Shown: positions 1 through 2,253 of the stretch, piece by piece
Position numbering within the stretch: position 1 is the first letter of the stretch
How the letters are laid out: each line of letters starts with the position of its first letter
Assembly (NCBI GenBank): GCA_012841565.1
Contig: DUUM01000288.1
Location: 1 to 8,336, forward strand
Reading direction: 5' to 3'
From: Candidatus Epulonipiscium sp.
GTDB lineage: Bacteria > Bacillota_A > Clostridia > Lachnospirales > Cellulosilyticaceae
DNA length: 8,336 bases
Made by a program: the position numbers and the translations under genes
The notes under the pieces: generated by a model
What the model saw: the letters and a program-made list of their open reading frames with translations, nothing else
What the model was told of the DNA's origin: nothing
Database searches by the model: none

Positions 1-66
1 ACGGTTGGCACTATCAACCCCCGTATCGGACTTTCACCGACTAGTTTGCACCCATGCTGGGCGCAC
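1..66 (-). mobile_element. 5' end of a group II intron (partial, runs off the left edge)
   Basis: Read on the minus strand, the element begins at position 66 with GTGCGCCCAGCATGGGTGC, which fits the 5' consensus of bacterial group II introns (GUGYG) and the start of domain I. It continues with a GGTGAAAGTCC segment in a small hairpin, and then with a GGTTG/CAACC hairpin (plus-strand positions 3-19). The junction is sharp: from position 67 the sequence matches the internal part of the attC-like repeats at 701 and 1445, so the intron sits inside a copy of that repeat. The catalytic domain V and any intron-encoded reverse transcriptase would lie left of the window. The structural class cannot be set from 66 bases. 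Identification rests on the recalled 5' consensus plus the interruption of the repeat. Confidence 0.75.
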
Positions 67-131
67 ATGTCCTAGCACCTTAGATAGCTCTTATCTTAGG
101 TGCTAGGATATTAGGAGTACTATGTTATAGG
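67..131 (-). repeat. attC-like repeat 1, interrupted by the group II intron
   Basis: This is the surviving right part of a repeat whose left arm has been displaced by the intron. It keeps the outer arm GTTATAGG (124-131), the GGAGTAC segment and an internal hairpin. The hairpin pairs CCTAGCACCT (71-80) perfectly with AGGTGCTAGG (98-107); the stem extends inward with one mismatch around a GCTCT loop. The order and internal sequence match repeats 2 and 3 (ATGTC at 67-71, 701-705 and 1445-1449). The flank GTTATAGGGTGGATAT (124-139) recurs at 1507-1522. Confidence 0.7.
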
Positions 132-197
132 GTGGATATCCCCTATGACTGTATAGCCAATTCTATATAATCTAAAAATGGCACCTCTGTATTTCAT

Positions 198-344
198 TTA
201 TTTCCTATTCAACTGATTCCAAATATTTACAAAAAATCTCCTAATGTGTTCACCTACATAACGTGCTACAAACATATATATTCTGAAGATTACTATTAGC
301 ATAATTAAAACCATTGTAAATCTTACAATAAAGTCAATATCCAA
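198..344 (-). CDS. Small single-span membrane protein, 48 aa, TTG start
   Basis: This short ORF starts with TTG at 344-342 and ends with TAA at 200-198. The start is supported by an excellent Shine-Dalgarno AAAGGAGG (357-350), five bases upstream of the TTG; such a match is unlikely by chance in this AT-rich DNA. The product begins MDIDFIVRFTMVLIMLIVIF. Residues about 5-27 form one hydrophobic segment, followed by a basic tail rich in Arg and Lys (RYVGEHIRRFF, ending NRK). It lies 23 bases downstream of the 63-aa gene on the same strand, so the two are probably co-transcribed as a two-gene cassette ending at repeat 1. The family is not recognised. A small membrane toxin or a membrane-anchored accessory peptide would fit the size and topology, but nothing in the sequence proves either. 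Confidence 0.55.
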   Translation of the reverse strand: MDIDFIVRFTMVLIMLIVIFRIYMFVARYVGEHIRRFFVNIWNQLNRK

Positions 345-367
345 GATGGCCTCCTTTCAACATATTT

Positions 368-559
368 TTATTTCTCAAGAACATGTTTACCTTTTGTTCC
401 ATCAGCGTTAATATAAAACCCATCAATTATTTCATTAATACCACCACCAAAAGACCAACTATTAGACTCTACAAAATTAATGAGTTTATCAAAAAACTCA
501 TCTTCTGATAATTCTATCGGAATCTCTACACAACCTTGAATTTCAAATTCCTTGCTCAC
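368..559 (-). CDS. Small acidic hypothetical protein, 63 aa
   Basis: The gene starts with GTG at 559-557, preceded by AAGGGG with a spacing of about seven bases. The ATG seen three codons upstream runs straight into a TGA in its own frame, so GTG is the supported start. The product has no signal peptide or membrane segment and is acidic. It has a beta-strand-like start (EFEIQGCVEIPIELSEDEF), a predicted helix (DEFFDKLINFVESNSW) and a glycine-rich stretch, FGGGINEIIDGFYIN, followed by ADGTKG. This alpha/beta make-up with a W-x-FGGG turn resembles small proteins that accompany mobile genes, but I cannot name a family. It sits in its own cassette-like unit between repeats 2 and 1 and is followed closely by the 48-aa membrane ORF. 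A partner role with that peptide is possible but only suggested by proximity. Confidence 0.75.
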   Translation of the reverse strand: MSKEFEIQGCVEIPIELSEDEFFDKLINFVESNSWSFGGGINEIIDGFYINADGTKGKHVLEK

Positions 560-675
560 AACATATCCCCTTTATATAAGTAATTCTCATACTTCATGCT
601 TAGCTACATCCCTGAAGTGAAAATCATAGTCTGTAATTCTAACTAAACACACTGATGCCATAGATATCTGATCTG

Positions 676-765
676 CCCTATAACGTCTCACGTATTCCTG
701 ATGTCTCGCAACCTTAGACAGCTCATGTCTTAGGGTGGGGAATGGCAGGAGTACTATGTTATAGG
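676..765 (-). repeat. attC-like repeat 2
   Basis: A 90-bp imperfect palindrome. The outer arms CCTATAAC (677-684) and GTTATAGG (758-765) are perfect complements. The inner arms GTATTCCTG (692-700) and CAGGAGTAC (746-754) pair with one G-T wobble. Between outer and inner arms the two sides differ: seven bases GTCTCAC on the left and only TAT on the right. This leaves an unpaired internal spacer like the one in attC sites. The terminal hairpin pairs CCTTAGAC with GTCTTAGG (one mismatch) around AGCTCAT. The left flank GATCTGCCCTATAAC (670-684) is shared exactly with 2035-2049. Confidence 0.75.
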
Positions 766-815
766 AAGTAATGTCACTATTACAAATCCCTACATAGTAG
801 AATCAACTTGCTTAA

Positions 816-1316
816 CTATTTTTTCACTTTTCTAGCAAAGAACATATATATCATCCCTGCCACTAAACCTAATCCCAATACACCAGTGAAAATATATGGC
901 GAGAAACTACTTGTTATAAAAACAGCTGTTGGTCCATCTGCACCACCTATAATCCCTATTGATCTTGCTTCTGGCGGCGGTAAAAAATCAAATCCTACGC
1001 TAACCAGAATTATTATCATACTTATAATCATGAGTATCATAACTATTTTTGTTGATTTCGTTTTTTCCATTCTATTCCTCCATAGTATTTTAAGAGAATA
1101 AATAATGCATAATATTGCACCTGTAAAATTAACTAGAAGTAAAATCTTAAATATAATATCTGCAAATATACTCAATATATTCTTATTTGTAAAGCTATCA
1201 AACCCTGTATAAAACTGCGGGGCTGTCTCTGCGAAAAAATAAAGGAATATAGTTGTTGCAACAAAAGATATAAATGTGAATAAGTATAATCTTTTAATAT
1301 TAACTTGCTTTTTCAT
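816..1316 (-). CDS. Four-span membrane protein with an OadB-like GGADGPT motif, 166 aa
   Basis: The start is placed at the ATG at 1316-1314 because it follows a strong AAGGGGGT ribosome site eight bases away. An ATG 11 codons upstream (1349) has only weak support. Hydrophobic segments lie at about residues 10-28, 54-78, 91-108 and 142-161, with a basic loop at 80-90. Between segments 3 and 4, residues 119-134 read SIGIIGGADGPTAVFI. This is the signature of the beta subunit of sodium-translocating decarboxylases (OadB/GcdB), where the aspartate of the conserved region takes part in Na+ transport. That subunit is usually a much larger polytopic protein, and none of the rest of it is recognisable here, so this is not a functional decarboxylase subunit. 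It may have borrowed the ion-binding element. The gene occupies a unit between repeats 3 and 2. Function unknown. Confidence 0.75.
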   Translation of the reverse strand: MKKQVNIKRLYLFTFISFVATTIFLYFFAETAPQFYTGFDSFTNKNILSIFADIIFKILLLVNFTGAILCIIYSLKILWRNRMEKTKSTKIVMILMIISMIIILVSVGFDFLPPPEARSIGIIGGADGPTAVFITSSFSPYIFTGVLGLGLVAGMIYMFFARKVKK

Positions 1317-1360
1317 TATCTCAACCCCCTTGATATAAAATTCTAGCATGTAAAGCCACC

Positions 1361-1389
1361 ATTATATATACTACTACCCTTATAAAAAA
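1361..1389 (-). promoter_or_regulatory. Possible promoter of the 166-aa membrane protein gene
   Basis: On the minus strand a perfect TATAAT (1366-1361) lies 44 bases upstream of the preferred start codon. At 17 bases further upstream there is only an A/T tract (TTTTTT, 1389-1384), so the -35 element is poor. In DNA this AT-rich a TATAAT can arise by chance. If real, this unit carries its own promoter, as cassettes in large chromosomal integrons sometimes do. Confidence 0.3.
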
Positions 1390-1420
1390 TCCCATTAATA
1401 ACTTAAACGGTTTAGAATTT

Positions 1421-1514
1421 CCTATAACGTCCAACGTATTCCTGATGTCTCGCAAGATAAGATGGCTCTTTATCTTAGCTTGTGGGATATTGGGAGTACG
1501 TTGGACGTTATAGG
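1421..1514 (-). repeat. attC-like repeat 3 (best-preserved copy)
   Basis: A 94-bp stem-loop. The outer 18 bases CCTATAACGTCCAACGTA (1421-1438) are perfectly complementary to 1497-1514. They contain GTCCAAC (1429-1435) and GTTGGAC (1500-1506), which match the attC core-site consensus RYYYAAC and GTTRRRY exactly. The inner arms ATTCCTGATGTCTCGCAAG and TTGTGGGATATTGGGAGT pair imperfectly with bulges. The tip pairs AAGATAAGA-like sequence with TATCTTA around a GGCTC-containing loop. GCTC in the loop is shared with repeats 1 and 2 although the stems have diverged. Confidence 0.8.
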
Positions 1515-1604
1515 GTGGATATGCTTCGTTAGCGCATGACGATTCCTTGTACCAGTCTTAGGTCCTCTATCTATTGCACAAATAATAGTGCACATCCATT
1601 AATA

Positions 1605-1925
1605 TTAGCCCCACCACATAATTAAGACCATTAGTGACCATAATGAAGTCATTATACCTACCACAAGATTGATAACAAAATATAGCTTGAATTCTTCTTT
1701 CTTCATCTTTTGTTTCTTGTTAAGTCTGTATGCTAATATGGCTGGGATTGTAAACAACGAGATACTTATTATTGTTATGATTGTCAGCCAATATACAGCT
1801 AAGTTTTCCAATATATTCTTATCGAGATAATACGAAATACTTTGACCATATATTCCTAATCCTAACGCCAAAAACATACTTCCGTATGTAAATACCCTTA
1901 TCTTGTTTTTTTCGTTAATCAACAT
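1605..1925 (-). CDS. Small three-span membrane protein, 106 aa
   Basis: The ATG at 1925-1923 is preceded by AAGGGGGG, a good ribosome binding site. The product has hydrophobic segments at about residues 12-30, 43-66 and 80-103, with a strongly basic loop (RLNKKQKMKKEEFK, residues 67-80) between the last two. By the positive-inside rule this loop is probably cytoplasmic. It ends in a tryptophan-rich MWWG. There is no catalytic motif and I do not recognise the family. The gene forms the first unit of the cassette-like array in the direction of transcription, between half-site 4 and repeat 3, and shares no similarity with the other small membrane protein at 816-1316. Its role is unknown. Confidence 0.75.
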   Translation of the reverse strand: MLINEKNKIRVFTYGSMFLALGLGIYGQSISYYLDKNILENLAVYWLTIITIISISLFTIPAILAYRLNKKQKMKKEEFKLYFVINLVVGIMTSLWSLMVLIMWWG

Positions 1926-2034
1926 TAATCCCCCCTTGTTAATTTGTTTTTACCGGCTTCTCATTTATCTATAACTGTGAAGCGAAAAGCTCAGCTATTT
2001 AATTACGCTCCTACACATAGCTGCCAAAACATAG

Positions 2035-2060
2035 GATCTGCCCTATAACTAATGTATTCC
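2035..2060 (-). repeat. attC-like half-site 4 at the array boundary
   Basis: GATCTGCCCTATAAC (2035-2049) is identical to 670-684 beside repeat 2. It is followed by TAAT and GTATTCC (2054-2060), the inner-arm sequence of the other repeats. The matching right arm (GGAGTAC...GTTATAGG) is not found in the next 200 bases. This is therefore a single-arm site: either a decayed repeat or a boundary site comparable to a simple recombination site. Confidence 0.6.
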
Positions 2061-2253
2061 CGTCCCCCACTTCCGTATATCCCCCCCCACAAGTGGTATT
2101 CCGGAACCCTCTTTCGGGAATGCCACCTCTATCAGTATCCTTCCCACTCCCTATTTAACCCATTCTCCCCCCAAATCAATACTCACCATTGTGAATTGTT
2201 AAACATCTCTAACCTATTGTAACATATTCCAACAAATTATACATAATATTTCC
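2061..2253. other. Gene-free stretch with C-tracts and one hairpin
   Basis: No credible ORF is seen between the half-site and the terminator of the xylosidase gene. The stretch holds runs of five and eight C (2064-2068, 2081-2088), seen as G-tracts on the minus strand. It also holds a 10-bp hairpin: GTGGTATTCC (2093-2102) pairs with GGAATGCCAC (2117-2126), with one G-U pair and a 14-base loop. The hairpin has no U-tract, so it is not a standard terminator. From 2127 to 2253 I see nothing specific. Confidence 0.5.

Follow-up and report, generated by a model that had tools for sequence, protein, structure and literature searches.

Part of a probable integron cassette array of Clostridia in contig DUUM01000288.1 of Candidatus Epulonipiscium sp.

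The stretch analysed here, referred to as the window, comprises 8,336 nucleotides of contig DUUM01000288.1 (assembly GCA_012841565.1) from Candidatus Epulonipiscium sp., and by its sequence very probably carries part of the cassette array of an integron system of Clostridia. This reading is drawn from the architecture of the attC-like sites, the complementarity between the start of each cassette and its own end, the strand bias of the sites, the arrays located downstream of a recombinase in relatives, an attI-like box, and shared units starting at GTTA. With less confidence, we also consider it probable that Clostridia possess an integron lineage of their own, in which a HARP-domain recombinase lacking the extra domain (patch) of the integrase IntI would act on folded single-stranded sites, the strand would be chosen by G.T wobbles and not by extrahelical bases, and the HARP-like domain would replace the IntI extra domain in binding single-stranded DNA. 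The HARP domain is otherwise known from fork-remodelling helicases. Since no recombinase is in view, the array of the window may be an orphan cluster.

The elements of the array, in the order in which they follow each other on the minus strand, are:

2035..2061, minus strand: half-site s4, the right half of a site (L' box and GTTA-TAG-GGCAG), where the array opens beside a glycoside hydrolase family 43 (GH43) gene
1428..2048, minus strand: cassette A, 621 bp, ending in s3, with an open reading frame (ORF) of 106 aa (1605-1925)
1425..1510, minus strand: site s3, an attC-like hairpin of 86 nt
684..1427, minus strand: cassette B, 744 bp, ending in s2, with an ORF of 177 aa (816-1349)
681..761, minus strand: site s2, an attC-like hairpin of 81 nt with spacers of 7 and 3 nt
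67..683, minus strand: cassette C, at least 617 bp, ending in the interrupted s1, with ORFs of 63 aa (368-559) and 48 aa (198-344)
67..127, minus strand: site s1, of which the left arm and the terminal hairpin are present, the right arm being cut off by a group II intron

The array thus runs from the GH43 gene through s4, cassette A, s3, cassette B, s2, cassette C and s1 to the intron. The listed ORFs are short, located between the repeats, and all in one direction. The first-pass annotation of this DNA had described three stem-loop repeats plus a half-site. Sites s2 and s3 are whole and s4 is present as a half-site, of which the left arm was not seen, but s1 is cut by the intron. The units of about 600-750 bp that it had described, with one repeat each and co-oriented genes, agree with the lengths measured above. 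A two-box repeat pattern gave four matches in the window (s2 and s3, on both strands each) versus none in 200 shuffles.

Similar sites are present in the 2.1 Mb metagenome-assembled genome (MAG) DUQJ01 of Clostridiales (G001). A pattern scan of the genome contigs of 84,980 species returned nine stretches, two of them from this MAG. The other seven, with a single match each and weak folding (-0.20 to -0.31 kcal/mol per base), were judged to be chance, as were the matches of the strict repeat pattern in four viral contigs, and a search with the core pattern of the repeat gave no matches. The covariance model R1, built from eight sites, detected 12 co-oriented sites on four contigs of the MAG, and a later scan added two more with a different L box, which gives 14 sites on four short contigs. 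By eye, genes in the units of the MAG resemble those of GNAT acetyltransferases and of a HigB/HigA-type pair, while others look like genes for a phosphotransferase-like protein and for small membrane proteins. Two pieces of the window reappear in the MAG with different neighbouring genes: part of the cassette B gene (85 bp, 88%), and s2 together with about 36 bp of cassette C (117 bp, 85%).

The remaining 33 genomes of the genus gave no R1 match, and a single weak match among the other 298 genomes of the family sample (G049) looks like a terminator hairpin. In the class sample, R1 matched 15 of 391 genomes, namely G001, its own source, and 14 others, several of them with one weak match. Twenty loci from 12 R1-positive genomes contained 49 R1 matches at E<=0.5, including seven that duplicate another match on the opposite strand. 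Sites whose terminal structures are long escape R1, and the site scan used in addition is heuristic. Intergenic stretches of the loci L121, L118, and L122 harbour longer sites (about 130-180 nt by scan) alongside short ones.

The 12 model-found sites of the MAG, together with s2 and s3, measure 81-91 nt each. In their arms, the bottom strand (the plus strand of the window) pairs via G.T where the top strand has A.C, with 74 G.T pairs on the bottom strand versus 9 on the top strand in these 14 related, and hence not independent, sites (P 8e-14). For 15 canonical attC sites, taken with a crude finder of which 15 of 23 hits were retained by eye, the counts were 41 and 24 (P 0.046). A preference of the bottom strand for folding, which is a trait of canonical attC, is also seen in the folding energies of s1-s3. 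With RNA parameters, s3 reached -67.2 kcal/mol on the plus strand and -45.6 on the minus strand, and s2, s3, and one site of the MAG ranged from -0.43 to -0.70 kcal/mol per base on the bottom strand. Canonical attC sites follow the consensus R' = GTTRRRY and R'' = RYYYAAC. The sites described here possess GTTA-NNN in its place, while single sites may match the consensus by chance. Many model-found sites (L112-L131), from different genomes, share a terminal hairpin resembling CTTAGATAGCTCYTATCTTAG, in contrast to canonical attC, where this part varies.

In gene orientation, the R box follows the rule CATC-NNN-TAAC ... GTTA-NNN-GACA. In a test with 11 cassettes, eight from the MAG and three from the window, the start of a cassette was complementary to its own end beyond AAC/GTT, with a mean prefix score of 6.9 for own ends versus 1.4 for cross combinations (permutation P 1e-5). 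Sixty-one cassettes were obtained from the window, the MAG, and 12 other genomes with sites scoring at least 14.8 and spaced 250-2600 bp. The NNN of own start and own end was identical in thirty-nine out of the sixty-one (shuffle mean 3.4, P 1e-5), and in 29 of 50 cassettes from the 12 genomes when window and MAG were left out. Across one site, the NNN agreed in 10 of 109 cases only. Other scorings gave own-NNN agreement in 41/64, 24/41, 40/68, and 28/50 cassettes, with shuffle means of 2.7-4.3. Cassettes A, B, and C follow the rule, and so, by reading, do the eight listed cassettes of the MAG.

Position 7 after GTTA was a bottom-strand G.T wobble in 37 of 39 cassettes under a scan scoring that favoured wobble. 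When positions 4-7 were left unscored, the wobble was still present in 26 of 28 cassettes and a Watson-Crick pair in none of the 28, and positions 8-10 were paired in 25-27 of them. Given the matched NNN and the fixed wobble, the R box of an excised cassette, once folded, may be read as a single stem of about 14 bp. Canonical cassettes also pair slightly past 7 nt (6 pairs), and longer own-end pairing alone is therefore not unique.

Recombinases near the sites were searched with an IntI profile made from 30 canonical integrases, which detected such enzymes near some of the sites. Four site-linked recombinases have NF040815 (XerA-type) as their best NCBIfam match, with 204-236 bits, and two of the four pass its cut-off of 220. 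Against TIGR02249, they reach 186-225 bits in two stretches, under the 265-bit cut-off, owing to the lack of the extra domain (about 30 residues) of IntI; this domain was absent in all four when aligned with one IntI. The IntI-specific patch, which the first-pass annotation had recommended as a search handle, would therefore miss this enzyme. In the tree, which took in 15 of the 30 IntI rows, IntI forms a clade (100/100) apart from the clostridial recombinases (25 rows, 81/92, moderate support). The predicted structure (pLDDT 83.6, pTM 0.51) contains a small separate N-terminal domain, and its best PDB matches, with low TM-scores, are XerA (5hxy, E 2.6e-16) and IntI4 (2a3v, E 3.9e-15). The enzyme is close to XerA and IntI.

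A three-row profile of the recombinase matched 23 of the 391 class genomes, 18 of them with a match that begins where the N-terminal domain begins. Orenia metallireducens and Halonatronum saccharophilum are examples of named species with the recombinase. A match to the HARP model of Pfam was noted in three of 120 listed relatives. In seven scanned relatives, including those three, HARP was over the cut-off in two, weaker in three, and absent in two, and L121 and L123 gave no HARP match at E<=0.01. Two tryptophans of the motif were invariant in all 27 aligned relatives, which were chosen from the 120. Recombinases with the same core and without the N-terminal domain (L190-L202) occur in seven of 212 genomes of the family of the MAG, several of them in multiple copies, and relatives of the core are present at 79 viral loci.

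Nineteen recombinase loci, one per genome, were scanned for sites. Six of them end 104-226 bp past the recombinase stop, which leaves 13 testable loci. Co-oriented sites were found downstream of the recombinase in twelve of the thirteen, with the first site 730-3630 bp past the stop, and upstream in none of the 19, where one opposite-strand hit was obtained. The chromosome-size contigs of G642 (3.26 Mb) and G659 (3.12 Mb) possess seven and nine downstream sites, respectively. A GTTA-NNN attI-like box lies 69-125 bp past the stop (GTT-CTCC in G386). When the box was chosen by its flanks alone, in 7 of 11 loci its NNN was the one present at the end of the first cassette detected, or in 8 of 11 if fit was favoured. 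A small CGAAC..GTTCG-like palindrome is located upstream of the box in most loci, by eye; it was not found in the window.

Single units are also common to different genomes. A unit of 1051 bp is 93% identical between G462 and G587 and has GTTA at both bounds. A stretch of 917 bp (83%), with its start at GTTA, follows an attC in G438 and the attI-like box in G460; its end lies within the next site. Two more unit starts are common to G386 and G484, with the likeness ending within the unit. This sharing is segment-wise and concerns related genomes, not whole cassettes of the window. It is in agreement, as are the clustered co-oriented sites of the MAG, with the integron-cassette layout proposed in the first-pass annotation. 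That reading of the layout is right, while recombinase, gene order, and site code differ from those of canonical integrons.

An unlikely alternative is that the cassettes are mobile and the patchless neighbour serves another purpose, the true recombinase being encoded elsewhere (XerC/D or an HUH enzyme). The role of the neighbour is read from sequence, and recombinase cores without the N-terminal domain exist in other genomes, where the single such locus scanned had no downstream sites. Against this stand the fixed gene order and the attI-like box, with its near-constant distance and its NNN fitting the first cassette in 7 of 11 loci. The co-occurrence also argues against it, as 10 of the 23 recombinase genomes are among the 15 site genomes (Fisher P 1.4e-10, or 5e-11 without G001).

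Less likely still is a canonical integron, or a cluster of attC sites lacking integron-integrases (CALIN), with an ordinary IntI acquired from another phylum. Such a system would have the same AAC..GTT boundaries, the bottom-strand hairpin, and cassette-like genes, here by eye GNAT-like, toxin-antitoxin-like, and for small membrane proteins. However, the linked recombinases lack the IntI domain, and TIGR02249 at E<=1e-40 was found in none of the 391 class genomes, versus 103 of 274 genomes of another class over the cut-off in the same search (scoring was stretch-wise, so that the zero is weak when taken alone and two-stretch patchless matches are not detectable). No canonical IntI was found in MAG DUQJ01, whose five tyrosine recombinases were judged by eye to be other types. 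R1 had no match in 14 canonical integron loci. Canonical attC alignments show extrahelical bases by eye, whereas none were seen in the L-box stem in the arm alignments of the window and MAG type, except for an insertion in the 91-nt site of L047.

That the repeats are a family of miniature inverted-repeat transposable elements (MITE), repetitive extragenic palindromes (REP) or terminator-like elements placed by chance between small genes is barely credible and already largely contradicted: the repeats are palindromic, and their sole Rfam matches are microRNA-type hairpins, all under their gathering scores, but the flanks diverge immediately outside AAC and GTT and yet pair within each unit, whole segments are shared as units between genomes, and, in place of the scattered single repeats that the first-pass annotation had named as the mark of a MITE family, the 12 model-detected sites are clustered, co-oriented, and confined to four contigs of the MAG, with none elsewhere at E<=0.001 (150 of 178 candidates scored).

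Several observations weigh against a Clostridia integron system in the window. The sites of the window are close to those of MAG DUQJ01 only, and it is the model, the R-box rule, and the terminal hairpin that connect them to the recombinase loci. A recombinase of this kind was found neither in the window, where the first-pass annotation had likewise seen no integrase, nor in the MAG; the latter result is uninformative, because the arrays of the MAG are broken over contigs. These contigs, of 3-4 kb, could be misbinned. Five of the 15 site genomes lack the recombinase at the threshold, 22 of the 61 cassettes violate the NNN rule, and four of the 23 recombinase genomes were left out of the locus scan. 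Among the 12 loci with downstream sites, six show one site and two show two, and the scan has a background, with 127 hits versus 40 in shuffled DNA and 10.9 per Mb of strand at a stricter cut. At G438, the thirteenth testable locus, the recombinase lacks the N-terminal domain and is followed by no site within 12.7 kb, and G653 harbours, outside the 19-locus scan, three extra recombinases that also lack this domain, two of them with model sites upstream. Finally, s3 has identical spacers on both arms (GTCCAAC) and near-perfect pairing, a symmetry unlike the other 13 aligned sites.

If the Clostridia integron system is as we propose, each unit would be a mobile cassette in which one or two small genes are combined with a single attC-like site (about 81 nt). 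When folded, the bottom strand would comprise an R box, formed between the start and the end of the same cassette, a spacer that is asymmetric and unpaired, an L box, a stem, and the terminal hairpin. In analogy to integrons, the XerA- and IntI-related recombinase would bind the folded strand, pair two sites, and cut and exchange at GTT, and the cassette would leave as a circle and enter at attI or at another attC. This recombinase as the actor, folded single-stranded DNA as its substrate, and the cleavage point are putative. The HARP-like domain would bind the folded strand, and so take the single-strand role of the extra domain of IntI.

The remaining features of the window flank the array:

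1..66, minus strand: 5' end of the group II intron that interrupts site s1
preceding half-site s4, minus strand: genes encoding a histidine kinase, a solute-binding protein, two permeases, and a GH43 xylosidase

The intron begins at position 66, within the right arm of s1, and lies on the same strand as the cassette genes. Positions 1-66 match a region close to ltrA of Peptoclostridium acidaminophilum with 86.4% identity over 66 bases, and a plasmid search of the window returned nothing besides this intron end. In its position within an attC-like site, the intron resembles the group IIC-attC introns, as described in passages of PMC4424553; the intron of the window lies on the cassette-gene strand and is known from 66 bases only. 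ORFs resembling group II reverse transcriptases were seen by eye in L112 (10225-11076) and L114 (2834-4711).

The search with the protein of cassette A (13 candidates scored) returned the ORF itself only. The protein database assigns ORF 1605-1925 to a contig of 14371 bases, so that more of the array surroundings may exist than the window shows. The protein of cassette B includes a short stretch similar to OadB (E 1.3e-7, 31.4 bits, cut-off 31.6) and has one relative with 92% on a 2.4 kb metagenome contig, plus three weak relatives.

According to passages of one survey (PMC9024848), integrons are extremely rare in Firmicutes, with one complete integron, in Limnochorda pilosa, and a few CALIN. 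A literature search in titles and abstract openings found no published account of Clostridia integrons with such a recombinase. If the proposed system is real, a share of Clostridia would possess a parallel system for cassette shuffling (recombinase in 23 and sites in 15 of the 391 sampled genomes), and searches that require canonical sites and the IntI domain would overlook it. The system would represent a second natural solution to strand selection, would raise the question of how hairpin recombination proceeds without the IntI domain, and would open an unsampled pool of cassette genes. The title of Messier and Roy 2001 reportedly calls this domain necessary.

Similar to sedentary chromosomal integrons, which consist of IntI, attI and attC arrays, the proposed system has, in related loci, a tyrosine recombinase and an attI-like box, together with co-oriented units that each carry one site, AAC..GTT boundaries, a bottom-strand hairpin with an unpaired spacer, unit starts at GTT, and, by eye, cassette-like genes. 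In contrast to them, the enzyme lacks the IntI extra domain, an additional domain of about 30 residues according to passages of PMC7784347, and mostly possesses an N-terminal HARP-like domain. The attI-like box is located after the 3' end of the recombinase gene, the R box is longer, with a free but matched NNN and a fixed G.T wobble, no extrahelical bases were seen in the sites of the window and MAG type, and the terminal hairpin is similar across genomes. In passages of the account of Treponema integrons (PMC3607928), the enzyme is named intI. XerA-type recombinases provide both the best NCBIfam match (NF040815) and the best PDB fold match (5hxy), and the clostridial enzymes differ from them by the added N-terminal domain and by their link to cassette arrays.

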